Below, piece by piece: positions 2,442 to 58,863 of a stretch of 64,000 nt of DNA (position 1 is the stretch's first letter; each line of letters opens with the position of its first letter). Position numbers and translations under genes: made by a program. The stretch comes from a virus: IMG/VR virus record IMGVR_UViG_3300046791_000470, positions 1 through 64,000 of that record. One strand, 5' to 3'. The notes under the pieces are model-generated. The model did not search any database. It worked only from the letters and a program-made list of their open reading frames with translations, and was not told where the DNA came from.

Positions 2442-3065
2442 CTACCGACGCTCGGAGTCCGCAACCATCGCGGCGGCCCACGGGTCTTCGGCTCCGATCT
2501 CCGCGTCCCCCATCACCGCGATGTGCGCGCCGTTCAGCCGCGCGGCGTCCACGTCCCGCCGGCCGATCAGCAGCCCGTCTCGGTACACGATCACCGCATC
2601 GCTCATCGCGGCCAGCGCGATCGCCGCGGCGTCGAGCTTCGCCCGGTCGGCCGCGCCGTGGCGCACGAGGTAGGGGGAGACCGGGACCGCGCCGGGCACC
2701 TGGATCAGCGCGATGCGCGCGAGTTCCATGCCGGCCTGCCACGCCGCGTAGTGCGACGGCGCCGGTGACGTGGGCGCCGGCAGCGGCCAGGCCAGGTAGC
2801 AGATGACGGGCAGCCCCAGCGCGATCCGCGCGCCCGCCGTGAGCCGGATCGGCGTGCGTTCCCTGGCTCGACGCTCGGGCAGGTGCGGCACGATCAGCCC
2901 CTGCGCGCGCGCCGTGTAGACCGCCTTGCTCACGTTCGACGGCCTGCGCCCCATCCTGGCCGCGAGCTCGTGGTTCGTCGGCCCGCGCCCGAGCTCGGCG
3001 GCCAGCGCCGCGATCGCCTCGAGCATCACCACCTGACGGCGGGTACGTGGCAGCGGCAGCCCCAC
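2442..3065 (-). CDS. winged-HTH protein with deoxyribosyltransferase-like C-terminus
   Basis: 207 aa. GTG 3065 is chosen because it sits 2 nt after the upstream TGA and directly precedes the HTH. Residues about 10-60 (GPTNHELAARMG, SNVSKAVYTARAQGLI) form a winged helix-turn-helix of the kind that reads operators. The C-terminal half (CYLAWPLPAP, an AAWQAGMELAR helix, PYLVRHG, AMSDAVIVYRDGLLIGRRDVD) resembles the nucleoside 2-deoxyribosyltransferase-like fold of DUF4406/DUF7768 phage proteins. The product may sense or process a nucleotide and bind DNA; no activity is shown. It is the last gene of the leftward early cluster before the promoter of the repeat gene. Confidence 0.6.
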   Translation of the reverse strand: MGLPLPRTRRQVVMLEAIAALAAELGRGPTNHELAARMGRRPSNVSKAVYTARAQGLIVPHLPERRARERTPIRLTAGARIALGLPVICYLAWPLPAPTSPAPSHYAAWQAGMELARIALIQVPGAVPVSPYLVRHGAADRAKLDAAAIALAAMSDAVIVYRDGLLIGRRDVDAARLNGAHIAVMGDAEIGAEDPWAAAMVADSERR

Positions 3066-3067
3066 GC

Positions 3068-3409
3068 TCAGTTCTCCTTCAGCGGGTCTTGCCCGCCGAT
3101 GTGCACCTTGGGCTCCGTGCCGGTCTCCTCCGCGTACAGCGCGATCGCCGCGCCCATGAAGCCGCCGAGGAAGGCAACGCGATCGCGCTCGGTCGCCGCC
3201 GCGTATGCCCGGCGGATGTCGAAGTCGACGAGCAGCGCCGGCTTGCAGCACGCGAAGTCCGGCGTGCATTCGCCGCCGTCGAGGTGCGCGACGTTGCCGT
3301 CCTTGTCGGTCAGCTCGAGGGTGTTCGCCCGGTGCACGGCGTCGCCGCGCACCCACCGCTCGATCTGCTCCTCGCGCGAGATGGGCTCGCCCTTGGGCGC
3401 GGGCGTCAT
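3068..3409 (-). CDS. conserved phage protein with CTPDFACC motif
   Basis: 113 aa, from ATG 3409 overlapping the upstream stop as ATGA. A central motif, GGECTPDFACCKPAL, is of a type found in small conserved phage proteins of unknown role; the three cysteines could bind metal. An acidic region before it and GFMGAAIALYAEETG after it are otherwise unremarkable. It is translationally coupled to the PGDYG/terminase-like gene upstream. Confidence 0.6.
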   Translation of the reverse strand: MTPAPKGEPISREEQIERWVRGDAVHRANTLELTDKDGNVAHLDGGECTPDFACCKPALLVDFDIRRAYAAATERDRVAFLGGFMGAAIALYAEETGTEPKVHIGGQDPLKEN

Positions 3410-4113
3410 GGACGCGCGCACCACAGCGCCAGGAGTCGCGCCCCGGCTTCGCCAGTCACCATCTCGAACAGCACCCCGAGGATGTCGGGCTCGAGGGGGC
3501 CGCGGTTCGGAATGACCCACATCCCCGACGACATCTCAGACGCCAGCGTCGCAATGTCAGCCGCGGGCTCGAGACCTCGCCGATCGATCACCGTCGACTG
3601 GTAACGACGGCGCACGTCCTCGATCGTCGCGTCGATCTCGGATGCGGCAGTCGTCGCGTCGGCGGTTGTCACGTCGAGGAGATGCCTGCGATCGCCGTGG
3701 ATGGCGAGCGTGACGAGTGCCGTCACACCGGCACGATCGGCAACCCCGGTGATCGTCCGGTAGCCACTCGGGACCCTGGAGAGCGCCCACGCCATATCCC
3801 GGCCGTGACCCTCGCGGAGCGCGCCCAGCACCCCACGAAAGACCACGGCGCCGTAGAACGTCGGCGACTCCGACGGATCGCGCACCGGATCGTACGTCGC
3901 CCGGAACACCGTATCCTTGATCGGGTAGTAGTGCACGCCGTCGGGCTCCGGGGCGATCCAGTCCCCGGGCGACAGGTAGCAGCGCTGATCGTGAATCGTC
4001 ACGACGTATGGAGTGTCGTCCTCGGGCCGGCGGAACACGCCCGGCGGATCCTTGCTCGGGTGGCCGTCGAACTGGACAGCTTCTATCTCGGTTGGCTTCC
4101 TTCGAAATCGCAT
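3406..4113 (-). CDS. PGDYG-type domain fused to TerL nuclease-like domain
   Basis: 235 aa with a strong AAGGAGG before ATG 4113. Residues 1-75 (MRFRRKPTEIEAVQFDG, LSPGDWI, FRATYDPV) match the small phage PGDYG-type proteins. Residues about 94-234 are clearly related to residues 321-502 of this phage's own large terminase (57301-58863). Shared phrases are ALREG, AWALS-VP-GYRTITGV, LLDVT, ASEMS-G-WV-PN and ALWCA. The acidic residues expected for the nuclease, Glu410 and Asp493 in TerL, are missing or replaced (VIDRRG and GARLLAL), and a block of about 25 residues is deleted. It is probably not a working nuclease. It could bind terminase or DNA, or be a decayed copy; this is inference. Confidence 0.75.
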   Translation of the reverse strand: MRFRRKPTEIEAVQFDGHPSKDPPGVFRRPEDDTPYVVTIHDQRCYLSPGDWIAPEPDGVHYYPIKDTVFRATYDPVRDPSESPTFYGAVVFRGVLGALREGHGRDMAWALSRVPSGYRTITGVADRAGVTALVTLAIHGDRRHLLDVTTADATTAASEIDATIEDVRRRYQSTVIDRRGLEPAADIATLASEMSSGMWVIPNRGPLEPDILGVLFEMVTGEAGARLLALWCARP

Positions 4114-4137
4114 GTCGTCCTCCTTGGTGGTTGTCGT

Positions 4138-5889
4138 CTATGACGCCGCGAGCTGCGTCTGGCCGCGCCGTCGGAGCACGTCCTCGGCGAGCTTGCGGAT
4201 GTGATCGTCGCTCGCGCCGGTGAGCTCCGGCGTCCCCGCCTTGTCCGGATCCACGATGCCCTGCGCCTGCGCCTCCTTGATGCCGAGCACGTCCGCGATC
4301 ACGGGGTCGGAGCCCTCCTCGGCGACCAGGTAGTAGGCCATCACCGGATCGGTCTGGCCGTCGCGGTGCACGCGGGCATCGCACTGGTGATGGACGGCCG
4401 GGCTCCAATCGAGCTCGCCATAGACCACGGTGCGCGAGACCTGCTGCAATCCGTCGAGCCCGGCGCCGGCGCGCAGCGAGATGATCAGCACGCGCGCGAG
4501 CCCCTTCATGAAGGCTTCGCGCGCGCGATCCTTTTGGACCTCGCTCTCCTCGCCCGTGTACATCGCGTACGGGACCTCGGCGCCGCTCCGCTCGAAGGCC
4601 GAGCGCCAGATCGCGTAGACCTCGTGATGCCATCCATACAGCACGACGCGCTCGCCGGCCTCGACGAGGAGCCTAACGAAGTCGGCCACCGCGGCGGCCT
4701 TCGCGATCCCGGTCGCCTGACGGAGCCTGAAGTCGAGCTCTCCGGCGGCCTGCATCCGCTCGAGGTTCGTGCCAATGCGCTCGAGCACGCGCCGCGCGAG
4801 CTCCGCCACGTCCGCCGTGGCCTCGTTGAGCCGGCTCTCGTCGCACTCGACCACGTGACGAACGATGGTGAGCGCCGGGATTTCGCGGCCAACGTCGAGC
4901 CGCGTGCGGCGGATCATCAGCCCCGCCTCGCGCAGGTACGTGCCGAGCGCCGCCGGGTCGGAGACCCGCGCCTTGTTCTCGTCTCCTCGGAATTCGCCGC
5001 ACCACTCGTCGAGGAACTCCTTCCGCGTCCCGAGCTGGCCCGGCGCGATCGAACTAACCACGTTAAAGATCTCAACGCCGTAGTTGTAGATCGGTGTTCC
5101 GGACAGGCCGATGCGCAGGTCTGCCGCCTGCATCAGCGCGAAGACCGCGTCGTACTTGCCGGTGCCGCTGTGCCGCAGTTCCTGGCATTCGTCGGCCACC
5201 ACGGTACGGCACAGCCCGGCGAGCTTCTCCACCCACCCCTTCACCTTGTGGTAGTTGATGAGCAGAACGTCTGGGACGCCGGTCTGCTTGACCACCTTCC
5301 GGCGGCGCGTGACCGGATCGATCTCCACGCGATGCTCGCGGAAGTCGTACGGCTGCCCCTTGCGGATGCGGTGCACGCGCAGCGCCGGCGCGAACCGCGT
5401 GAGCTCGCGCTCCCACTGCCGCGTCAGGTGCGTCATCGTGATCACGACTGCCGGCAGCGCGCCGGGGGCGGTGAGCGCGCAGATGGCGGTGACCGTCTTG
5501 CCGACGCCCATCTGATCCGCGATCAGCAGACCCCCTGTCTTGATCGCCAGATCCGCGGCCAGCCTCTGGTACGCGCGCGGCGGCAGCGCCAGCTCGAACT
5601 CGCGCGGCACGTACCCCTCCGCCTCGATCGCCTCGATCGCGGCGAGCTTCCGCTCGTGCGTCGCGATGAGCTCGCGGAACCGCGCCTCGCTCGCCGGGTC
5701 GATGTCCAGCGGATGCCGCTCGCGGAACCAGTCCAGGTCGTACGCCTGCGCCGGCGTCGCCGAGAGCTTGAACACGCCGGCCTTGTACCGCTGCACCCCG
5801 CCGAACAGCCGGCGCAGCCGGATGCTCACGTGCGGCGGCGCCGCGATCGTGATCTCGTTCCCCTCGATCGTGATCTTCCCGTGCTGCAT
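4138..5889 (-). CDS. SNF2-family DNA helicase/translocase
   Basis: 583 aa; ATG 5889 overlaps the upstream TGA by one base (TGATG). Helicase motifs are in order: Q-like PPRAYQRLAADL (about 103-114), Walker A DQMGVGKT (125-132), DECQ in place of DEAH (233-236), GLSGTP (261-266) and a motif VI-like CDARVHRDGQ near 530. The layout matches small SNF2/RapA/SMARCAL1-like ATPases common in phage replication clusters, which remodel or anneal DNA rather than process long duplexes. It lies downstream of the methylase and nuclease genes and upstream of the PGDYG gene. Confidence 0.9.
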   Translation of the reverse strand: MQHGKITIEGNEITIAAPPHVSIRLRRLFGGVQRYKAGVFKLSATPAQAYDLDWFRERHPLDIDPASEARFRELIATHERKLAAIEAIEAEGYVPREFELALPPRAYQRLAADLAIKTGGLLIADQMGVGKTVTAICALTAPGALPAVVITMTHLTRQWERELTRFAPALRVHRIRKGQPYDFREHRVEIDPVTRRRKVVKQTGVPDVLLINYHKVKGWVEKLAGLCRTVVADECQELRHSGTGKYDAVFALMQAADLRIGLSGTPIYNYGVEIFNVVSSIAPGQLGTRKEFLDEWCGEFRGDENKARVSDPAALGTYLREAGLMIRRTRLDVGREIPALTIVRHVVECDESRLNEATADVAELARRVLERIGTNLERMQAAGELDFRLRQATGIAKAAAVADFVRLLVEAGERVVLYGWHHEVYAIWRSAFERSGAEVPYAMYTGEESEVQKDRAREAFMKGLARVLIISLRAGAGLDGLQQVSRTVVYGELDWSPAVHHQCDARVHRDGQTDPVMAYYLVAEEGSDPVIADVLGIKEAQAQGIVDPDKAGTPELTGASDDHIRKLAEDVLRRRGQTQLAAS

Positions 5890-6848
5890 CAGAGCGCGAA
5901 CTCCTGTTGGGGCACCGCAGCGAGGCAGTGCGGAGAGAACCAGATCCGTTCCTGCGCGCGCGACTTCGCCGAGCTCGTCGACGCCCACGCCACCGCCGTC
6001 CAGGACGGCGGCATCACGTGTTCGCCTTCAAAGCCGCAGAGCGCGATGCGGAGCTGCGGGTTGTCGCCGTTCGCGATCGCCCACTCGCGCACCAGCGCAG
6101 AGACGTGCGCGTCGTCCTCGCGGTACAGCCGCCGGTCGCGGAGCTCGTGCGTGTAGGGCGGATCGAGCAGGACGCCGCACGGAGTCATGCCGTGGGCCGT
6201 GTCGATGCCGAGCGTGGAGCGGCCGACGACGCGTGTCCAGTCGCCGCAGCACACCCGCACGTTGCGCAGCCGGTCGCTCAGGCGCTCGAAGATATCGGGC
6301 GGCGACCCGTCGCGGTGCACGCCCTTGTTGCGGTGGGTGAGCGGCTTCTTCCTCGACGGTGCGTGGATCCCGTGGCCGGGCGTGCCGACCTTGGGCAGGC
6401 TGCGATGCAGGCGCTCGTCCGAGTGACACCAGCCGTTGCCGATCCACGCGCAGATGCCCCAGATCCACCACCCGGCGATCTTCGGGTCGAACCAGTCCGG
6501 ATCTTCGATCAGCCGCTCGAGCAGCGGCGCCTGGCCCACGAGCCAGCGATGGCGGGCATGGAGATCCGCCTCGTTCACAGGCCACTCGCACCACTCGGCC
6601 ACCGCGTCGGGCGCCAGCTTGATCGCGCGCCACGCGTTTGCGATGTAGCCATCGAGATCGTTCACGGTCTCGACCTTGGCCGCGTGCGGACGGCCGAGCA
6701 GGCAGCCGAGCGACCCGGCGAACGCCTCCACGTAGTTCGGCACGTTGCCGAACGCGCGCCAGATCAGCGGGGAGGCGAGCGTCTTGCCGCCGAACCACGG
6801 GAACGGCGCCCGTAGCTCCTGACGCCAGTCGGTGTCTCGGTGCTGCAT
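5889..6848 (-). CDS. D12-class (Dam-like) adenine-N6 DNA methyltransferase
   Basis: 319 aa. AdoMet site FPWFGGK at 16-22, NDLDGYIANAWRAIK at 63-77 and catalytic DPPY at 229-232 give the order typical of D12 (alpha-class) adenine methyltransferases such as Dam. Its target cannot be read from the protein, but the GATC cluster in the initiator gene (14884-14971) makes GATC worth testing. The start ATG overlaps the stop of the nuclease-like gene (TGATG), so the two are probably made together. Confidence 0.9.
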   Translation of the reverse strand: MQHRDTDWRQELRAPFPWFGGKTLASPLIWRAFGNVPNYVEAFAGSLGCLLGRPHAAKVETVNDLDGYIANAWRAIKLAPDAVAEWCEWPVNEADLHARHRWLVGQAPLLERLIEDPDWFDPKIAGWWIWGICAWIGNGWCHSDERLHRSLPKVGTPGHGIHAPSRKKPLTHRNKGVHRDGSPPDIFERLSDRLRNVRVCCGDWTRVVGRSTLGIDTAHGMTPCGVLLDPPYTHELRDRRLYREDDAHVSALVREWAIANGDNPQLRIALCGFEGEHVMPPSWTAVAWASTSSAKSRAQERIWFSPHCLAAVPQQEFAL

Positions 6849-9303: not shown

Positions 9304-10195
9304 GGGTCACCTCCGGGAACGCGTCGTGGATCTTGTCGTCGAGGATCGGCAGGTGCCGCTTCCCCTTCACGCGCTCGCCGCCGATGCCGGGCGCGTCCTT
9401 GCCGGCCCACTGCTTGAAGTGGAACGCGACTCCGTGCCGGGCGGCGGCGTCGCGCGCGGTGCGCACCCACGACGGGTCAGCCGGTCGCGCGCCTCGGCCG
9501 CTCTCGTCGCCGACGATGAGCCAGTCGATCTGTGGGTCGGCGACGATGCCGCCGTCGGCGTAGTCGAGGCGCGGCTCGAGTGCGCGATCCCAGTCCTGAT
9601 CCGTGATGTGCTCGAGAAGCGGCTCGCACGAGATGAACCGGACCACGGCCGGCGTCCGGCGCAGGATCTCGACGCGCGACAGCGACGAGCGCACGCCGGC
9701 GGTGACGCCGAGCCAGACGTTCGGCCACGGCTTGGCAACCTCGGCCAGCTGCTCCTCGTCCATGTACCGGCCGCCGTCGTTCACAGGGCGCGTGATCCAC
9801 GGCAGCATCGTCGCGAAGTTCTCGGGACGCTTCGTGAGGAGGAGCCAGTCGAGCCACGGCGTTTCGTTGATCAGGCGCCACAGTCGGCGTCGTTCCTCTT
9901 CCATGCGGGCCGCGATCTCGGGCACCGGGTGACGCTCGAACAGGTCGCCCATCGACTCGCAGAACACGCGCCGCCGCTCGCCGGCTTTCTTCGCCTTGGC
10001 GTTCAACGCCAGCGGCTCGCGCCAGTGCGCGTCGCTGAAGAACTTCCGCGGTCCGGTGCGCTGCCAGTGATCGCCACCGAGTCGATGATCAAACGCCTCG
10101 GCGTAGCAGTGAGTACACTCGTCGGAGATCTTCCAGCAGCCCCACCACGGATTGAAGGTGTGGTGGGTCCACGAGATGTTGGTCTTGTCACCCAC
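9296..10195 (-). CDS. DUF5131 (phage Gp37/Gp68-like) protein
   Basis: 299 aa from GTG 10195 (8-nt overlap upstream). The N-terminal NPWWGC and ISDECTHCYAE, then RVFCESMGDLFE, LDWLLLTKRPEN and NVWLGVT, are diagnostic for the phage Gp37/Gp68 family, DUF5131. The three cysteines in C-x(6)-C-x(2)-C are the reason the family is suspected to be radical-SAM-like, but no reaction is established. It lies between the ASCH-like and deaminase-like genes. Confidence 0.8.
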   Translation of the reverse strand: MGDKTNISWTHHTFNPWWGCWKISDECTHCYAEAFDHRLGGDHWQRTGPRKFFSDAHWREPLALNAKAKKAGERRRVFCESMGDLFERHPVPEIAARMEEERRRLWRLINETPWLDWLLLTKRPENFATMLPWITRPVNDGGRYMDEEQLAEVAKPWPNVWLGVTAGVRSSLSRVEILRRTPAVVRFISCEPLLEHITDQDWDRALEPRLDYADGGIVADPQIDWLIVGDESGRGARPADPSWVRTARDAAARHGVAFHFKQWAGKDAPGIGGERVKGKRHLPILDDKIHDAFPEVTRG

Positions 10196-10739
10196 GGGGC
10201 GGCTCCTTCTCGACCAGGCCGAGGCCGTAGAGCGTGAGGTGGTGGAACTCCTCGGCGGTGTAGCGGCGCCAGCGCGGATCGCCGTCGGGGTACTCGGTGA
10301 CCTTCGGAAAGAATCCCTGACTCGGGCGATCGATCCACACCGGCTGCTCGTACAGCCACACCCCATCGAGTCCCACGTCCAGGATCGTCCGCGAGCACGT
10401 CACGCACGACGGCCCGCCGCCGGCGACGAGCTCGCCGCCCACCACCTTCACGTGGACCAGTTCGAGCGTGACAGCCCGGCCCATCCGCAGCGGCAGCGCC
10501 GCCATGATGGCCCGCTCCTCGGCGTGGACGCACAGCTTGCCGCATGCCTCGCGGCACGCCGCGTCGCCTCGGCACTGGAAGGGCGGTGGCTGGCCGTTGT
10601 GCCCGACGCCGAACACGCCGAGCGCCCGCGAGAACACGGCGGCGCCGCGGCTCGACTTGAGGCACGCCCCTTGCGCCCGGCCCTCGCGCGCCGCGCGGAT
10701 CGCGGCCTCGATCGCCTCCTGTGGTGGTGTCGACTCCAT
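10188..10739 (-). CDS. cytidine/dCMP-deaminase-like protein
   Basis: 183 aa. HAEERAIMAA at 72-81 and PSCVTC around 110-115 give the zinc-binding His/Glu and Cys-x2-Cys of the cytidine/deoxycytidylate deaminase fold. The order is right, but PSC replaces the usual PCxxC phrase. Phage dCMP deaminases feed thymidylate pools and can supply modified bases. The start overlaps the upstream stop by one base. Confidence 0.7.
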   Translation of the reverse strand: MESTPPQEAIEAAIRAAREGRAQGACLKSSRGAAVFSRALGVFGVGHNGQPPPFQCRGDAACREACGKLCVHAEERAIMAALPLRMGRAVTLELVHVKVVGGELVAGGGPSCVTCSRTILDVGLDGVWLYEQPVWIDRPSQGFFPKVTEYPDGDPRWRRYTAEEFHHLTLYGLGLVEKEPPRG

Positions 10740-11242
10740 CAGCGTCCTCCTCGGTCCAGAATGTCCTCGAGCATCCCCAGCGATTCCTCGTCGATGTTCG
10801 CCTCGCGGAGCCCGTCGGCGAGGTGCTCGAGCGCCGCCGACTCGATCTGTCGCACCCGCTCGCGCGACACGAACAGCACGCCCGCGATCTCGTCGAGCTG
10901 CGCGTCGTCGTGCAGCGTGCTCATCGCCTCGTCCAGCACGCACGACTTGACCGACGCGGAGGGCTCGTCGAACACCGCCTCCACGAAGTCCTCGATCTCG
11001 TCATAGGCGCGCTCGTCGGCCTCGCGGCCCGGCGGGATCAGGCGCGCCGCGCCGGTGCTCGCCGATCGGTACCGCGCGTTGAGCACGATCGACCCGTCGG
11101 GCAGCATGTCCAGCAGCAGGTTGAAGCGGCAGCCCACGAACGGGCACGGGCGCGGTCCCTTGCGGCAGTCGCCGACCGTCCGCGGGCGCGCGAACAGCGC
11201 GTCATCGGTGAGTATGGGCAGTCTCGTCGGGTTTCTCACCAT
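10739..11242 (-). CDS. sigma-factor-region-4-like HTH protein with Cys-rich N-terminus
   Basis: 167 aa. The C-terminal part (residues 115-141, LDEIAGVLFVSRERVRQIESAALEHL) matches the sigma-70 region 4 HTH that reads -35 boxes. The N-terminal DCRKGPRPCPFVGCRFNLLLD contains three cysteines and is typical of small myxobacterial and phage proteins with this layout. It lacks regions 2 and 3, so it is not a whole sigma factor; it may bind -35 sites or core polymerase. It is a candidate regulator of the unusual TTGAC-type promoters in this window, which is inference. Confidence 0.65.
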   Translation of the reverse strand: MVRNPTRLPILTDDALFARPRTVGDCRKGPRPCPFVGCRFNLLLDMLPDGSIVLNARYRSASTGAARLIPPGREADERAYDEIEDFVEAVFDEPSASVKSCVLDEAMSTLHDDAQLDEIAGVLFVSRERVRQIESAALEHLADGLREANIDEESLGMLEDILDRGGR

Positions 11243-11244
11243 GG

Positions 11245-11871
11245 CTACAGCAGCGCTCCCTGCGTCGTGGCTGCGGCGAGCCCCGCGGCAACGAGCTCCT
11301 CCAGCACCCACGCCGGGTCCTTGGTGATCAGGCGCGCGCGGATGAGCACGCCGGGTTTCTGCTCGGTCCACGCCTTGCCGACGTGGGCCGAGGTGATCTG
11401 CGAGTCGTCCTCGGCGAGCGCGCCCGCGAGGCCCTTCTTGGTCGCGTCGGTCAGCGCGTCGCCAACCGCGCGCGCGAGCTTGTCCCAGTCTGGCTTCGTG
11501 TCCGGGGTCGGGTGGCGCATCCCCTCCGCCGACAGCGCGCCGCGGCCGGTGTAGTGGGCGTCCGGCCGGCGGCGCAGGAACACCATGAACATCTCGAGCG
11601 CCCCTGGACGCGTCACGACCCGCGCGCCCGCGGCGTTCCGCGCGCTGATCGCGTAGACCCGGATCAACCCCTGCCACGCCTCGAGCGCCTTCCCGCCGTC
11701 GTCGGTCACCACCGCCCCGACGATGCGCCCGCCGATGCAGTTGCGCCGGCCGCACCGCTTCCCCGGCACGCACGCCGTGCAGGGTCCGCGATCGATCGGG
11801 AACGCGTCGTGGTTGCCTTTGCTCAGCGGCTCGCCCGCGACGAAGAACCGTATGTCCAGGGGCGCGCTCAT
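11245..11871 (-). CDS. rusA: RusA-family Holliday-junction resolvase
   Basis: 208 aa; ATG 11871 overlaps the upstream TGA (TGATG). The phrase PDTKPDWDKLARAVGDALTD followed by AEDDSQI carries the acidic residues and Lys of RusA resolvases, after the usual N-terminal LSKGNHDAF and an RRRPDAHYTGRG loop. A Cys-rich insert, CTACVPGKRCGRRNC, is unusual and could be a zinc finger. RusA cuts four-way junctions made in replication or recombination. It sits with helicases and methylases. Confidence 0.8.
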   Translation of the reverse strand: MSAPLDIRFFVAGEPLSKGNHDAFPIDRGPCTACVPGKRCGRRNCIGGRIVGAVVTDDGGKALEAWQGLIRVYAISARNAAGARVVTRPGALEMFMVFLRRRPDAHYTGRGALSAEGMRHPTPDTKPDWDKLARAVGDALTDATKKGLAGALAEDDSQITSAHVGKAWTEQKPGVLIRARLITKDPAWVLEELVAAGLAAATTQGALL

Positions 11872-12158
11872 CAGTTGTCGTCGCTTCCCCCGTCGCCGGT
11901 GTCCTTGACCTTGCCGACCTTGGCCTTGACCACCTCGGCGAGCGACACCTTGCGCTGGTTGCCCTCGCCGTCCTCGTAGCGGTAGCTGGTGAGGTTGTGC
12001 GAGACCATCACGGCGACGAGCGCCGCCTGCGCCTTGGTCTCCTTCTCGCCGAGCTGCATGCGCTCGTCGCGCAGCACGCGGTACTCCTCCGCTGCCGCCT
12101 CGATCTCCTCGATGACGGGCGCCGCGGTTCCTTCGATCTGCAATTGTGCTCTGGCCAT
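11871..12158 (-). CDS. small coiled-coil phage protein
   Basis: 95 aa. A heptad-rich helix (about 10-50) is followed by RYEDGEGNQRKVSLAEVVKAKVGKVK. Proteins of this type are often found beside RusA and DnaB genes in phages. The role is unknown. Confidence 0.55.
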   Translation of the reverse strand: MARAQLQIEGTAAPVIEEIEAAAEEYRVLRDERMQLGEKETKAQAALVAVMVSHNLTSYRYEDGEGNQRKVSLAEVVKAKVGKVKDTGDGGSDDN

Positions 12159-12169
12159 GTCGCTGTCTC

Positions 12170-12937
12170 CTACTGGTTAGTTGCCTGCGCCGCATCGACG
12201 CGCCGTTGCGCGTAGTCGGCCCACTTCTTCGCGAGATCGAGGCCCACGGCCCCCATCCGCAGATGCTTCGCAGCGGCGAGCAGCGTGCCCGAGCCGCAGA
12301 ACGCATCGACCACGGTCTCGCCCGGGGTCATGAAGTCGCGCGTGATCTCCTTGATCAGCTCGAGCGGCTTCTGTGCCTCGTGCACGCGGTGCTCGCCGCG
12401 CACCACGCCGGCCGTGTACACGCCGTGCTTCCCCCCGCCGTTCCACCGCATCCGCCGCCCGCGGTGGTGCGCCACCACGATCACCTCGTGGCCCGAGCTC
12501 GGCCGGTCGCCGGTCATCTGCGGCGTGGCGCTCTGCCGCGGGCGCTCGTGCGTGAGCTCGGCGTCCCCGGTCTTCACCCAGATCATCGAGCGGACGTAGA
12601 CCATGCCGGCGGCCTCGAGCGCCGTGGCCCAGTCCATCGAGCTCTCGTGATCCGAGAACACCAGCGCCCACCGCCGGCACGCGCGCGCCGCCCACGCCGC
12701 CCACCGCAGCCGCTTCTCCGTCGTCGCCGGATCGAACCCGAGCGGCATCGGCGCGCTGATCCCGTGCTTCGTCTCCTTGCCGCGCCGCGTGTTGTCCTGC
12801 GTCCGCTTGTCGTACGGCGGATCCCAGAACACGTGATCGAAGGCGCCCTCGTCCACCTGCACGTCTTCGATCGCCGCGCAGTAGGCGAGCTGCCGCCCGC
12901 GCAGGTCGGTCATGAACTGGCTATCGAGCTTGAGCAT
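12170..12937 (-). CDS. DNA methyltransferase, N4/N6 beta-class
   Basis: 255 aa. DPPY at 39-42 comes before FCGSGT at 213-218, the beta-class order in which the catalytic motif precedes the AdoMet loop. AQKPLELIKEIT and GLDLAKKWADYAQRRV complete the fold. It would add a methyl group to adenine N6 or cytosine N4; the target is not visible. ATG 12937 overlaps the stop of the helicase gene by one base (TAATG). This is the second of three methyltransferases in the window. Confidence 0.85.
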   Translation of the reverse strand: MLKLDSQFMTDLRGRQLAYCAAIEDVQVDEGAFDHVFWDPPYDKRTQDNTRRGKETKHGISAPMPLGFDPATTEKRLRWAAWAARACRRWALVFSDHESSMDWATALEAAGMVYVRSMIWVKTGDAELTHERPRQSATPQMTGDRPSSGHEVIVVAHHRGRRMRWNGGGKHGVYTAGVVRGEHRVHEAQKPLELIKEITRDFMTPGETVVDAFCGSGTLLAAAKHLRMGAVGLDLAKKWADYAQRRVDAAQATNQ

Positions 12938-37859: not shown

Positions 37860-39497
37860 TCACCGCATCGAGTAGAGCGGCCGGAGCCCGCTGTCGAGGC
37901 GGCGCTCGCCGAGCGCGGCGAGCTCGTCGCCGAACGCGACCGCGACGCGCCCGCCGTCGATGCCCTCGGGGAAGTTGTTGTTGATGTCGAAGCTCGAGCC
38001 GCGGAAGTCCTGGTAGACCGCCGCCGCCGGCTTGCCCTCGGGGTCCTTGCCGCTGCCGGCCACCTTGGCTTTCGTCCCACCCCCCATGTCGATGTAGTCG
38101 ATCTTCAGTCCTGGGATCTGGTTGATCGCCCAGATCACGCCGTTCAGCAGCGCCACGAGGCCGATCATCACCTTTTCGACTACCCACATCAGCTTGTCCA
38201 TCCACCAGGCGAACATCAGCAGCGTCACCAGCAGCGCGCCGCCGAGGATCGCGAGGATCGGCTTGATGGCCTCGAACAGCTTCCCGAGGACGCCGAACAC
38301 CATCATCGCGATGTTCTTCATCTTCTCGATGAGCGGCCCGAGGACACTCACGAACATGTCGCGAATGCCAAAGACGTTGCGGCGCAGCAGCTCGAACGCG
38401 GCGATCACGATGCTGATCACCAGGCCGATGACGCCGAGGCGCCCCACCACCGTGCTCAGGATGCGCATCATCGGCCCGCCGGCGGAGGCGAACATGCCGA
38501 TGCCTGGATTGGCCGCCTTCGCGGCGAAGTAGTCCATGCCGCCGGACGCCGCGGCCTTGCCGGCCATCATCCGGTTTGCGCCGCCGATCACCTGCTTGCC
38601 GCGATCGAGGAGCCCCATCGAGCCGCCGGGCATGAAGACGTTGGCCGCCTTCGCGGCGAGCATCAACGCGAGGTAGGTCTTCGCGAGCCCGACGACGATT
38701 CCCATGTGCTCGGCGAGGAAGCGGCCGATGCTGGCCGTGATCGGCTCGATCGCTTTGAACGCCGAGGTGATCTCGTTGAGGATCATCGTCACGGCGGGCA
38801 TCAGGTTCTTGTAGAGCGTGCCGATCATCGAGCTCCACGCGCTCGCGAGCCCGCGCCGGACGGCCAGCATCTCCTTGTGCATGGCCAGCGCGCGCCCGTC
38901 GATCAGGTTGGCGCCGCCGAGGGTCTCCGTCTTGATCTTGCGCAGCCGCTCCGCGCCGCCCTGCAGCATCTCCATCATCTGGCCGGCCTGCGTCGCCGGG
39001 ATGTTGAAGCTCTTGATCAGGTCGTGGATGTGCAGCCGGCCGGCCTTCGCGGCGTCGGCCATCTGGTAGAGCCGCTGCTCGGGGCCGGCCTTCACGCTCA
39101 CCCCGAGCCTGGTCATGAGCTGGGAGAGGGTCTGCGACTGCGTGCCGGCCATGGCCAGCTTCGCCGAGAGCCTCGACATGCTGAGGATCGTTTTCTCGGC
39201 CGCCTCCTGACCGATCCCGCTGCTCTCGAACATCTCGAACATCGAGTGCGCCGAGGACGCGGCCATGCCGGTCATGGCGTGCACGCGGCCGACGGCCTGG
39301 TAGAGCCGATCGGTGTCCTGGATCGCGGTGCCGACCTGCCAGATCCCAGCGAGCCCGCCGACCGCGCCGCCCCACGCGCCGACCGCCCCGAAGCCCTTGG
39401 CCAGCCGATCGGCGGCGCCGGCGAGCCCGTTCAGCTTGCGCGTCCCGTCCTCGGCGCCCTCGATCTTGATCCGCTGGTTGAGCTCGGTCTCGGTCAT
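37860..39497 (-). CDS. tail tape measure protein
   Basis: 545 aa. Helical N-terminus with repeated Ala/Met-rich segments, several hydrophobic segments (LGVIGLVISIVIAAFELL, LLVTLLMFAWWMDKLMW) and a soluble C-terminus. Its position directly after the tail chaperone pair identifies it. At about 1.5 angstrom per residue it predicts a short tail of about 80 nm. Its start overlaps the upstream stop. Confidence 0.85.
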   Translation of the reverse strand: MTETELNQRIKIEGAEDGTRKLNGLAGAADRLAKGFGAVGAWGGAVGGLAGIWQVGTAIQDTDRLYQAVGRVHAMTGMAASSAHSMFEMFESSGIGQEAAEKTILSMSRLSAKLAMAGTQSQTLSQLMTRLGVSVKAGPEQRLYQMADAAKAGRLHIHDLIKSFNIPATQAGQMMEMLQGGAERLRKIKTETLGGANLIDGRALAMHKEMLAVRRGLASAWSSMIGTLYKNLMPAVTMILNEITSAFKAIEPITASIGRFLAEHMGIVVGLAKTYLALMLAAKAANVFMPGGSMGLLDRGKQVIGGANRMMAGKAAASGGMDYFAAKAANPGIGMFASAGGPMMRILSTVVGRLGVIGLVISIVIAAFELLRRNVFGIRDMFVSVLGPLIEKMKNIAMMVFGVLGKLFEAIKPILAILGGALLVTLLMFAWWMDKLMWVVEKVMIGLVALLNGVIWAINQIPGLKIDYIDMGGGTKAKVAGSGKDPEGKPAAAVYQDFRGSSFDINNNFPEGIDGGRVAVAFGDELAALGERRLDSGLRPLYSMR

Positions 39498-55323: not shown

Positions 55324-57260
55324 GCGGGCGGGGCCTCGGCGGGCGGGACGGCGGGCGGAGCGACCGGCGATGCCGGCGCGGGCTTCACGAGCATCGACTG
55401 CGCCTCCACGATCGAGATCGCCACGTCGAGCGGCATGCCGGCGAGGAACGCGAGCAGGTGCGCCGCGGCAGCGGGCGCGAGCTCGCCGCCGGTGACGCGC
55501 ACGACCAGCGCCACGAGCGCCTCCATCTGCGGCCCGGCGATCATGGCGTCGGCGGCCTTCCCCGACGGCGGATGGCCGGCTGGCGCTGCTGGCGCCGACG
55601 GAGGGGCGGCGATGTCCGCGGGCGCGCCGGGGCTCGATACCTGTCGCCCGAGCAGGTCCGCCATCAGCGCCTCGTCGCCGCCGGCGCGCTCCATGCGGAT
55701 GCGCTTCAGCGCCTCGGCCGGGTCGGACACGCCGAAGAACGGCGCCAGGTACTGGACCGCGCTCTCGAGATCGATCGCCTGCGCCAGCCGCGCCTGCGAG
55801 ATCGCGCTCGCGGCGTCGCCGGCGTCGGACGGGCCGCGCTGCACCCACTCGGGCCACACGAGCTCGAGATCATCGGCCGTGATCGTCGTGACCGTCGGCG
55901 GCAGCTCGCGCTCGACCGGCTGACCGTCCGGCCCCTCCACCGGAGGCAGGCTCACGGCTCCGACCAGCCGGAGCCCGGTCTGCGGATCCGTCGGCCCGGA
56001 CGTGCGCACTTTGATCGCGGCGCGGATCATCTTCGCGAGGAGCGGCTTCACGCCCTGCTCTCCGTACTGCTCGCGGAACAGGTCCCCGCGCTCGTGCATC
56101 GACGAGTAGCGCCGCTCCACCTCGGTGGCCGTCATCGGGCCGGCGGTCTGCTCGGCATCGAGCACGCACTGCACCACCTCCAGGAAGTTGCGGCGGTGGA
56201 CCTCCACCATCTTCAGCCCGGCCTCGATGCCGGCGCCGACGATCTCGAGGTACGTGGCGCCGGCGCCCTTCTCGACCTGGATCGCGTTGCGCGAGCCCTT
56301 TTTCAGGCTCGCCAGCTTGAGCTGATCGCTCTCGATGAGGAGCGTCGGATCGAGGTTCTCGACGGCGGCCTGATCGGCCTGGCTCAGGAGCCGATCGATC
56401 GCCTCCTGCGTGTCGTACTCGCCGAGGCAGTCCGGATCGCCGTCCTGCTGATCGGTGAGCGTGTTGCGGATCCACACGCCGGGGAACTCTCCGAGGCCGT
56501 GGTCCACGCGGGTCTGCGCTTGCCACACTGGCTCGTCGCCCTCGCCGACGGGCGCCGGCACGAACACCACGTCCGAGGTCTGATCGATGATCCGCCGGTA
56601 CCAGAACCACACCTCGCGGAGGATGCCGTCGCCGCCGTACTGCTCCGTCGGGAACATGTAGCGGATCTCGAGCGCGCTCACCTCGCCGCTCGAGCGGTTG
56701 ATGAAGGTCGGCGTGCACCACCGCGGATCGTGCACCTCGACGACGGGCCGCCCGCCCTGGAACGCGAAGGTCATCACCGCCGTGCCCTGGCCGCCGCCGA
56801 ACATCCGGCCGTGCGCGAATCTGATCCACATCCGGCACGACGCGATGACGCCCTCGATCCACGCCTGGACCGCGGGGTTCCGGTGCTTCACCGACGGGTG
56901 TTTCTTCGCCGAGAACAGGAGCCCGGTGAATCGGTTGACCACGGCGCGCACGAGGTGGAACGGCGCCGTGGGCCGGCGCATCGAGAGCGGCATGTCGTCG
57001 GTGCCGCTCGGATCCCAGAATCCCGGCGGCAGCACCTGCGTGCGCGCGATGTTCTCGCGCTCGAGCTCGCCCATCACCTTCCGGCCGTCCCAGCCGACGG
57101 AGCGCGCGGCATACGGCTCGGCCTCGTAGAAGGACCAATAGCGGTTGAGCTCGAGCTGCCGGGCCGTCATGCCCTGGCGCTGGAGGCGCGCCATCTGCTG
57201 ATCGTGCAGCGCGACGCCCGCCTGGAAGGCATTCCCCGGTCCGTACGCGAGCATCGGCAT
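55320..57260 (-). CDS. portal protein
   Basis: 646 aa. RPTAPFHLVRAVVNRFTGLLFSAKKHP, VVEVHDPRWCTPTFINRSSGEVSALEIRYMF, EYDTQEAIDRLLSQADQAAVENLDPTLLI and TATEVERRYSSMHERGDLF are typical of SPP1 gp6-like portals. The C-terminal tail is Pro/Ala-rich. It forms the dodecameric vertex that the terminase docks on. Confidence 0.75.
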   Translation of the reverse strand: MPMLAYGPGNAFQAGVALHDQQMARLQRQGMTARQLELNRYWSFYEAEPYAARSVGWDGRKVMGELERENIARTQVLPPGFWDPSGTDDMPLSMRRPTAPFHLVRAVVNRFTGLLFSAKKHPSVKHRNPAVQAWIEGVIASCRMWIRFAHGRMFGGGQGTAVMTFAFQGGRPVVEVHDPRWCTPTFINRSSGEVSALEIRYMFPTEQYGGDGILREVWFWYRRIIDQTSDVVFVPAPVGEGDEPVWQAQTRVDHGLGEFPGVWIRNTLTDQQDGDPDCLGEYDTQEAIDRLLSQADQAAVENLDPTLLIESDQLKLASLKKGSRNAIQVEKGAGATYLEIVGAGIEAGLKMVEVHRRNFLEVVQCVLDAEQTAGPMTATEVERRYSSMHERGDLFREQYGEQGVKPLLAKMIRAAIKVRTSGPTDPQTGLRLVGAVSLPPVEGPDGQPVERELPPTVTTITADDLELVWPEWVQRGPSDAGDAASAISQARLAQAIDLESAVQYLAPFFGVSDPAEALKRIRMERAGGDEALMADLLGRQVSSPGAPADIAAPPSAPAAPAGHPPSGKAADAMIAGPQMEALVALVVRVTGGELAPAAAAHLLAFLAGMPLDVAISIVEAQSMLVKPAPASPVAPPAVPPAEAPPA

Positions 57261-57300
57261 CGCCCGAGGATCACGCCCGGCCCGAGGCCGAGCAACCCGC

Positions 57301-58863
57301 TCACGTCCGGCGCGGGCGCTTGCCCTGCTGGATGCCGGTCGCCAGCCGCACGCCCTCGCGAGCGAACCACATCGCCATGAGCCGATCGCCGGTGTGGCTC
57401 CGGGGGTCGTAGCGCAGCATCTCGTTGATCAGCGCCAGCACCTCCGGATCGATGGTGCCCTCGAGCGTGCCGCCCTGGTTCGGCAACACCCACTTGCCGG
57501 CGGACATCTCGACGGCGATCGACTCGAGCCCGAAGGTGGGATCCACCTTGTTCTTGCCCGTGTAGAAGGCGCGAACCGGGACCGCGCTCCCCTCCTCCAC
57601 GAACTGCTTGATGTACGCCTGCGCCGCGTTCGACTCGACGATCATCAAGGAGTTGTACCGGCGGTGCAGGTCCTTGATCGCCGCCACGATCTCGGGGCCG
57701 CTGAGCTTGCCCGAGGTCACGTCGAGGAGCTGGCGCCGGCCGGTCCGCTCCTCGACGGCGATCGTCACGAACGCTGTGAGGTCGGACTTTTTCTTCTTGG
57801 TGGCGCCGAGGTCAACGCCGGTGATCGTGCGGTACCCCGGCGGCACCACTGACAGCGCCCACGCCAGCTCGAGGCCGTTCCCCTCGCGCAGCGCGCGCAG
57901 GATGTACGCCGCCTTGAACCGGCGCTCCGCGTCGGCGACCGGATCGCAGAACAGCGAGCGGCGCGACTCGATGGGTCCGCGGTTCGCGATCTCCTTGTCG
58001 ATGCGCGCGTCCGGCCACACCTCCGGCCACGAGCTCCGCCCCTCGGCGTCGCGCACCGGATACTTGCGGTGCGCGGTCGCGGGCTCCTTCGCGTAGCGGT
58101 GCGCGGCGTCGTCGTGGTGCCACGCGTTGCCGATGAACCACAGCCGCGCGCTGTCGGTTCGCCGGCCCTCGATCGTGCTCTTGAGCCAGGAGTGGTACTT
58201 CTCCCTGAGGTGCTCTGAATACGTGTTCTCGGGCGTGAGGTAGTCGTCAATGATGATCAGGTCGTAGCGGGCACCGAGGATCGCACCCTCGAAGCCCGAC
58301 GCCTGGACCGTTGGATCTTTCGAGATCGTCGAGCGCGCGACGTGGAACGCGTCGGCGCGCCACAGCCCGGTGGTGTCGCTCTTGTCGGGGCGAACGTGCG
58401 GGAACACGGCTCGGTACTCGGCCGAGTTCTCGATGTACGTCTTGAGCGTCTTGACGATCCGCTTCGACGCCCCGGCCGCCGACGACAGGATCAGGATCCG
58501 GATGTTCGGGTTGGTCCCGATCTCCCACAGCACGCGGCCGACGGAGAGCTGGCTCGTTTTCCCGCTCTCCGTGTGACACGTGAGGACCACGCGCTCGCTG
58601 GAGTCGATGAGGTCGTGCCACTCGACGTGCATCGGCGCGAGCAAGATCGGCGCGCCGGTCTGCTCGTGCCTGAGCACGAACTGGCAGAACACCGCCGGGT
58701 CGGTGCGCGAGACCTCGGCCAGCTTCGCCATCGCCGGCGCGAGATCGGCGGCGGCCTTGGTCAGCGCGTGGCGGCGCTTGAAGTTCCCGCCACCGCGGCG
58801 CGCCGTCTCCCTGCGCTCCGCCCGCGGCTGAATGGCCGCTCGTCTCGCGGGTCTAGTTCGCAT
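57301..58863 (-). CDS. terL: terminase large subunit
   Basis: 520 aa. Walker A CHTESGKTS (96-104), Walker B LIIIDDY (202-208) and the nuclease domain with GVDLG (Asp351), IVESNAAQ (Glu410) and TGDRLMAMWFA (Asp493). A run of lysines (TKKKKS) follows Asp351. The start overlaps the small-subunit stop by 11 nt. Its nuclease domain is the source or sister of the domain in the 3406-4113 protein. Confidence 0.9.
   Translation of the reverse strand: MRTRPARRAAIQPRAERRETARRGGGNFKRRHALTKAAADLAPAMAKLAEVSRTDPAVFCQFVLRHEQTGAPILLAPMHVEWHDLIDSSERVVLTCHTESGKTSQLSVGRVLWEIGTNPNIRILILSSAAGASKRIVKTLKTYIENSAEYRAVFPHVRPDKSDTTGLWRADAFHVARSTISKDPTVQASGFEGAILGARYDLIIIDDYLTPENTYSEHLREKYHSWLKSTIEGRRTDSARLWFIGNAWHHDDAAHRYAKEPATAHRKYPVRDAEGRSSWPEVWPDARIDKEIANRGPIESRRSLFCDPVADAERRFKAAYILRALREGNGLELAWALSVVPPGYRTITGVDLGATKKKKSDLTAFVTIAVEERTGRRQLLDVTSGKLSGPEIVAAIKDLHRRYNSLMIVESNAAQAYIKQFVEEGSAVPVRAFYTGKNKVDPTFGLESIAVEMSAGKWVLPNQGGTLEGTIDPEVLALINEMLRYDPRSHTGDRLMAMWFAREGVRLATGIQQGKRPRRT

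Follow-up and report, generated by a model that had tools for sequence, protein, structure and literature searches.

A gene in the early region of an uncultivated bacterial virus encodes a disarmed copy of the nuclease domain of the phage's own terminase, TerL, joined to a small domain that is widespread in phages. The gene lies in a window of 64,000 nucleotides (positions 1 to 64,000 of IMG/VR record IMGVR_UViG_3300046791_000470, an uncultivated virus record with a length of 87,516 bases). With moderate confidence, the product is regarded as an expressed and folded TerL paralogue that does not cut but binds DNA or packaging partners. Such a binding paralogue is supported by the homology, the loss of the catalytic acids, the fold prediction, the retention of the core, the in-frame gaps, the ribosome site, the ATGA coupling and the precedent of phi29 gp16. 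Against it are its occurrence in one genome only, the loss of two invariant residues from the N-terminal domain, a lower third-position GC content and a structural model that leans on TerL sequences.

The fusion gene and its neighbors

The fusion gene occupies positions 3406 to 4113 on the minus strand, the coordinates given in the original prediction, and encodes a protein of 235 residues in a frame that is intact, as had been claimed. The gene for the phage's own TerL (57301 to 58863) is also on the minus strand. It encodes 520 residues, belongs to phrog_38 (E=1.5e-62) and has its nuclease residues intact (GVDLG, IVESN and HTGDRL).

Upstream of the fusion gene is a gene for an SNF2-type DNA helicase (4138 to 5988, minus strand; phrog_62), whose stop codon is about 25 nt from the fusion start. 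A strong ribosome site, a Shine-Dalgarno-like AAGGAGG read from the sequence, is located 5' of the fusion ATG (4119 to 4125, minus strand). The fusion stop codon overlaps the start of the downstream 113-aa gene (3068 to 3409, minus strand) as ATGA; no family was found for this downstream gene. The proposed placement in an operon is consistent with these three features. No sigma-70-like promoter was found, and terminator-like sites (one) were no more frequent than by chance. PADLOC gave zero matches. Beyond the helicase are genes for a D12 DNA methyltransferase, a LexA-like DNA-binding protein, a sigma-like protein and a DnaB helicase. Because of this content the fusion gene is placed among replication or early-type genes, outside the packaging and head module. 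Its third-position GC is about 0.80, versus 0.9 in the adjoining genes.

The C-terminal domain is homologous to the TerL nuclease

The C-terminal domain consists of residues 87-235 (3409 to 3855, minus strand). The original alignment of residues ~94-234 with the nuclease domain of the phage's own TerL is borne out by BLASTP (E=2e-28). In a tblastn search of the phage's own genome, TerL is 54% identical to residues 89-178 of the copy (E=2.7e-17) and 39% identical to residues 178-234. Over 139 aligned codons the amino-acid identity is 47.5%, and at the sequence level chance resemblance is ruled out. No ATPase domain match was found in the 235-aa protein, so it is not a TerL by domain content. 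A deletion of 25 residues had been described; the deletion is present but is 27 residues long, and it is the largest of several differences, the others being gaps of 6, 2, 5 and 4 residues and a 2-residue insertion. All six internal gaps are in frame.

A tree built from 41 nuclease domains places the copy as sister to the TerL of the same phage; the support is mixed (SH-aLRT 57, ultrafast bootstrap 95). The branch of the copy is six times longer than that of its sister (1.19 versus 0.20). The identity at fourfold sites is 0.45 between the copy and the phage's TerL, compared with 0.67 between that TerL and its nearest relative, L015. Because of this greater divergence, the copy may be somewhat older than the split between these two TerLs, may come from a close relative, or may have evolved faster.

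Loss of the active site

The two Asp and the Glu that form the active site of the TerL nuclease are each 100% conserved in 40 TerLs of related phages. None of the three is retained in the copy. At the first position GVDLG is changed to GVADR, replacing both the D and the L, each of which is 100% conserved in the 40 TerLs. The catalytic Glu falls within the 27-residue deletion. At the third position HTGDRL has become EAGARL, a change of Asp to Ala. The original prediction had recognized the loss of the Glu and the last Asp and had overlooked that of the first Asp. Thus the catalytic Asp-Glu-Asp of an active TerL nuclease is absent from the copy. There are 59 TerL columns with a conservation of at least 90%; in the copy 28 of them are unchanged, 17 carry another residue and 14 are missing, whereas TerLs scored likewise keep 42-50 of 50-54 conserved columns.

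A nuclease that remains active through rearranged ligands, with an Asp displaced one residue downstream where strand 1 ends and another near the end of strand 4, is extremely improbable. Residues D126 and D177 do appear, by sequence, close to two of the lost ligand positions. The third ligand however is an Ala (HTGD to EAGA) and the helix that follows the Glu is missing, and all of these features are near-invariant in the 40 TerLs. Judged by its sequence, then, the fusion protein is homologous to the nuclease domains of TerLs yet cannot be classed as an active TerL, having neither the ATPase domain nor the catalytic acids.

Predicted fold of the C-terminal domain

The two domains were modeled apart. 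AlphaFold2, given residues 87-235 with 40 TerL rows in the alignment, predicts a compact RNase H-like core (pLDDT 92.8, pTM 0.88) in the order strands 1-3, helix, strand 4 and C-terminal helices. In the model, the 27-residue deletion took out the stretch carrying the Glu together with the helix and the strand that follow it, and a compact core remains. The best structural matches in the PDB are the terminase nuclease domains of P74-26, G20c, RB49, D6E and T4. The comparison with 5tge gave E=5.2e-5 and a TMq of 0.64, the maximum TMq among the matches, which also include 8dgc, a terminase bound to Avs3. Terminases were again matched in a viral structure library. The original prediction had been staked on a structural match to the RNase H-like terminase fold, and such a match was obtained from the model. 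Because AlphaFold2 leans on the TerL rows, the model shows that the C-terminal sequence is compatible with this fold rather than proving that it folds so. The sole PDB sequence match of the C-terminal profile, a 60S L17-A entry (E=5e-4), was disregarded; no single stretch of it passed.

The N-terminal domain

The N-terminal domain comprises residues 1-79 (3877 to 4113, minus strand). Residues 1-87 match phrog_419 (7.6e-17) and residues 2-81 match phrog_1810 (2.2e-9), both families without an assigned function. The domain had been called PGDYG-type. The fusion protein itself has no match to Pfam PGDYG (PF14083) at E<=1, but 12 of 37 close relatives of the domain match PF14083 weakly (best E 0.0026); the relationship to PGDYG is thus a distant one, and no mention of PGDYG was found in the literature searched. 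The claim that the domain is found in many phages agrees with a count of at least 210 confirmed loci. The family is large and its members are mostly stand-alone small phage proteins, the close relatives being ~76-113 aa long (L004, L005 and L006 are 72%, 69% and 65% identical, respectively). Nearly all of the ~80 relatives examined stop at the end of the domain and none has a TerL-like extension. Since phrog_4159, a nucleotide pyrophosphohydrolase by name, is matched by 25 of the 37 relatives, the domain probably has other partners elsewhere.

The fusion keeps 15 of the 19 near-invariant positions of the family. However, P67 and D68, invariant in 36 relatives, are replaced, KPDIF having become KDTVF. 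By its residues, the first half of the protein is a divergent member of the phrog_419/phrog_1810 family, set apart from its nearly always stand-alone relatives by the TerL extension and by this motif. The fold prediction for the domain is confident. Comparison of the model with PDB structures gave nothing significant (best E 1.3), and its profile had no matches among PDB sequences. An alignment of mixed N- and C-terminal sequences, in which the two domains had been aligned to each other, was discarded.

The junction

The junction, or linker, spans residues ~75-94 (3832 to 3891, minus strand). The sequence GATCCGGT occurs in both genes at this point, in the reading frame of the DPV codons of TerL; the small domain ends in TYDPV and TerL has FCDPV. 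A few bases past GATCCGGT is GTCGCCGACG, a 10-base match to TerL in a different frame. The junction DNA match beats 300 of 300 codon shuffles. A frameshifted protein alignment scores marginally above the in-frame one (255 versus 253). These features tentatively suggest that the TerL homology may start in a shifted frame, with the correct frame restored at VLGALREG.

A short repeat at the junction of a single metagenomic contig could also arise if the reads of two phages had been assembled into one chimera. This is very improbable: the deletions and active-site losses of the C-terminal half have no counterpart among the TerLs of the related records, and this half ends in phase with the next gene.

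Distribution and the variable cargo site

A search for the same fusion in other phages had been proposed as a check. The fusion is absent from 61 records with related TerLs or N-terminal domains, in which every convincing match to the C-terminal domain is a TerL ORF, and from 15 further records with the N-terminal domain; the ~80 N-terminal relatives likewise gave no second example. No copy was found in the bacterial genomes searched. The fusion is therefore seen in one genome only, a single metagenomic contig. Two other TerL-like matches were rejected, one in G014 (90774 to 91016) as a chance match that overlaps other reading frames and one in G039 (38887 to 39072) as part of an unrelated 371-aa ORF.

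Homologues of the helicase mark the corresponding site in two relatives. In the syntenic phage G005 the helicase is 69% identical and is followed by a short gap and then by a homologue of the window gene at 2442 to 3356. In the syntenic phage G016 a methyltransferase gene occupies the place of the fusion gene. Because G005 has nothing there and G016 a methyltransferase, the site is, on gene order, a variable cargo site among the early genes, and the fusion is an insertion relative to both phages. The D12-type methyltransferase of the window (5889 to 6848) has a 70% identical homologue in G005 at another position relative to the helicase, which indicates that the gene order around the cargo site has been reshuffled.

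Constraint or decay

The synonymous sites of the copy and the phage's TerL are near saturation, as their fourfold identity indicates, and dN/dS by NG86 is unreliable here because dS saturates. The identities at codon positions 1, 2 and 3 are 0.63, 0.76 and 0.52. When unconstrained decay was simulated to the observed fourfold identity, about 14% amino-acid identity was left, usually with stop codons, compared with the 47.5% observed. Hydrophobic residues that have changed are still hydrophobic in 74% of cases versus ~42% expected (P<=0.001). In addition, 34 of 38 family-hydrophobic columns keep their class, versus 20 of 36 invariant polar columns kept (P about 0.02). This signal of constraint may in part predate the capture and come from the time when the sequence was a working TerL. 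Many of these figures could also be fitted if a working TerL had been captured from a relative and had then undergone ~0.2 neutral substitutions per site. Long overlapping ORFs are numerous in this genome, and for this reason the open frame is weak evidence alone.

These considerations bear on the main rival account, which is a substantial, though still doubtful, possibility: that a TerL fragment was caught behind the small-domain gene by illegitimate recombination and is decaying without a function, the frame staying open since GC-rich sequence has few stops. It would explain the single occurrence, the different content of the site in relatives, the short repeats and possible compensated frameshift at the junction and the long branch. 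The substitution or deletion of 31 of 59 near-invariant TerL columns and the loss of the two invariant N-terminal residues point the same way, and the many overlapping ORFs weaken the open frame as evidence. Debris of this kind is harder to reconcile with the retained hydrophobic core, six gaps all in frame, a good ribosome site with ATGA coupling, and a confident fold prediction.

Proposed mechanism and relation to known systems

For a binding paralogue, the following sequence of events is proposed. A partial TerL copy, the 3' part, would have been joined behind the small-domain gene at the cargo site beside the early-region helicase. All three metal-binding acids have disappeared from the copy, as has the helix-strand unit that follows the Glu, while the hydrophobic core of the RNase H-like fold has been kept. 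The fusion protein, if expressed, would most likely act through binding instead of cutting. Its minimal terminase-nuclease module may still contact DNA or a partner in packaging (TerL, portal or TerS), and might in this way compete with or modulate packaging, either the phage's own or that of a co-infecting relative, in a direction that is conjectural. Titration of packaging factors and regulation of TerL, both put forward in the original prediction, are likewise hypothetical roles.

The closest precedent comes from phi29, in which the C-terminal domain of gp16 is a vestigial terminase nuclease; its Asp and a helix have been lost, yet it still binds DNA and has been proposed to help the motor switch modes (PMC7672431). 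By its sequence and predicted fold the fusion fits this kind. In both, active-site acids and a helix of an RNase H-like terminase nuclease are lost and a minimal core is kept, the fold being predicted in the present case. The gp16 domain however is part of the sole packaging ATPase, whereas the copy is encoded by a second gene, lacks an ATPase domain, is fused to another domain and coexists with an intact TerL. DNA binding was measured for gp16; for the fusion protein it is suggested by analogy. Compared with the TerL nuclease domains of this phage and its relatives (phrog_38), the copy is alike in sequence and predicted fold but differs by the missing catalytic D/E/D, the 27-residue deletion, the missing ATPase domain and the early-region location. 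The literature searched yielded no duplicated dead TerL nuclease, nor a disarmed terminase nuclease that exists as its own protein next to an intact TerL.

The bacterial immune proteins Avs1-4 recognize TerL, portal or another phage protein (PMC12931631). If produced along with the early genes, a TerL-like fragment might act as a decoy that fills a TerL-sensing protein (Avs1-3) without triggering it. The recognition of TerL or portal by Avs proteins (PMC12931631), the Avs3-bound terminase 8dgc among the structural matches and the location of the gene with early and replication genes, away from the packaging module, are compatible with such a role. It is nevertheless improbable, and a weaker idea than competition with TerL; a TerL-like fragment might activate the sensor rather than block it, and the ATPase domain is absent.

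Regulators commonly arise from dead copies of enzymes. In its broadest form, the proposal is that the phage makes, with its early genes, a separate protein that is a disarmed duplicate of part of its packaging motor, attached to a domain common among phages, and that controls its own or a competitor's packaging or blocks TerL-sensing immunity; as a whole this is unlikely. If the protein is expressed and binds, the packaging motor would have a natural dominant-negative or decoy version, which might also serve in phage competition or immune evasion. Such a protein would also help to tell which surfaces of the nuclease domain serve binding and which serve cutting.

Other features of the window and related records

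In G016, the cargo site holds a 560-aa DNA methyltransferase ORF (56967 to 58649, in L272) with an internal homing-endonuclease-like insertion (MLDAEGCLFIHKRK...). The TerL ORF of this relative (L162, 2086 to 4785) is 900 aa long; its nuclease homology breaks off close to the last catalytic Asp and is taken up again ~350 residues further on, as an intein would cause. In L030, an ORF (9938 to 12571) encodes an 877-aa TerL in which the ATPase domain is interrupted by a Hint/intein-like stretch (CVTPDSEVVTETG ... GFAVSHNC). On the plus strand of the window, positions 209 to 330 contain a short tandem repeat, one frame of which reads PLSPAVAV.
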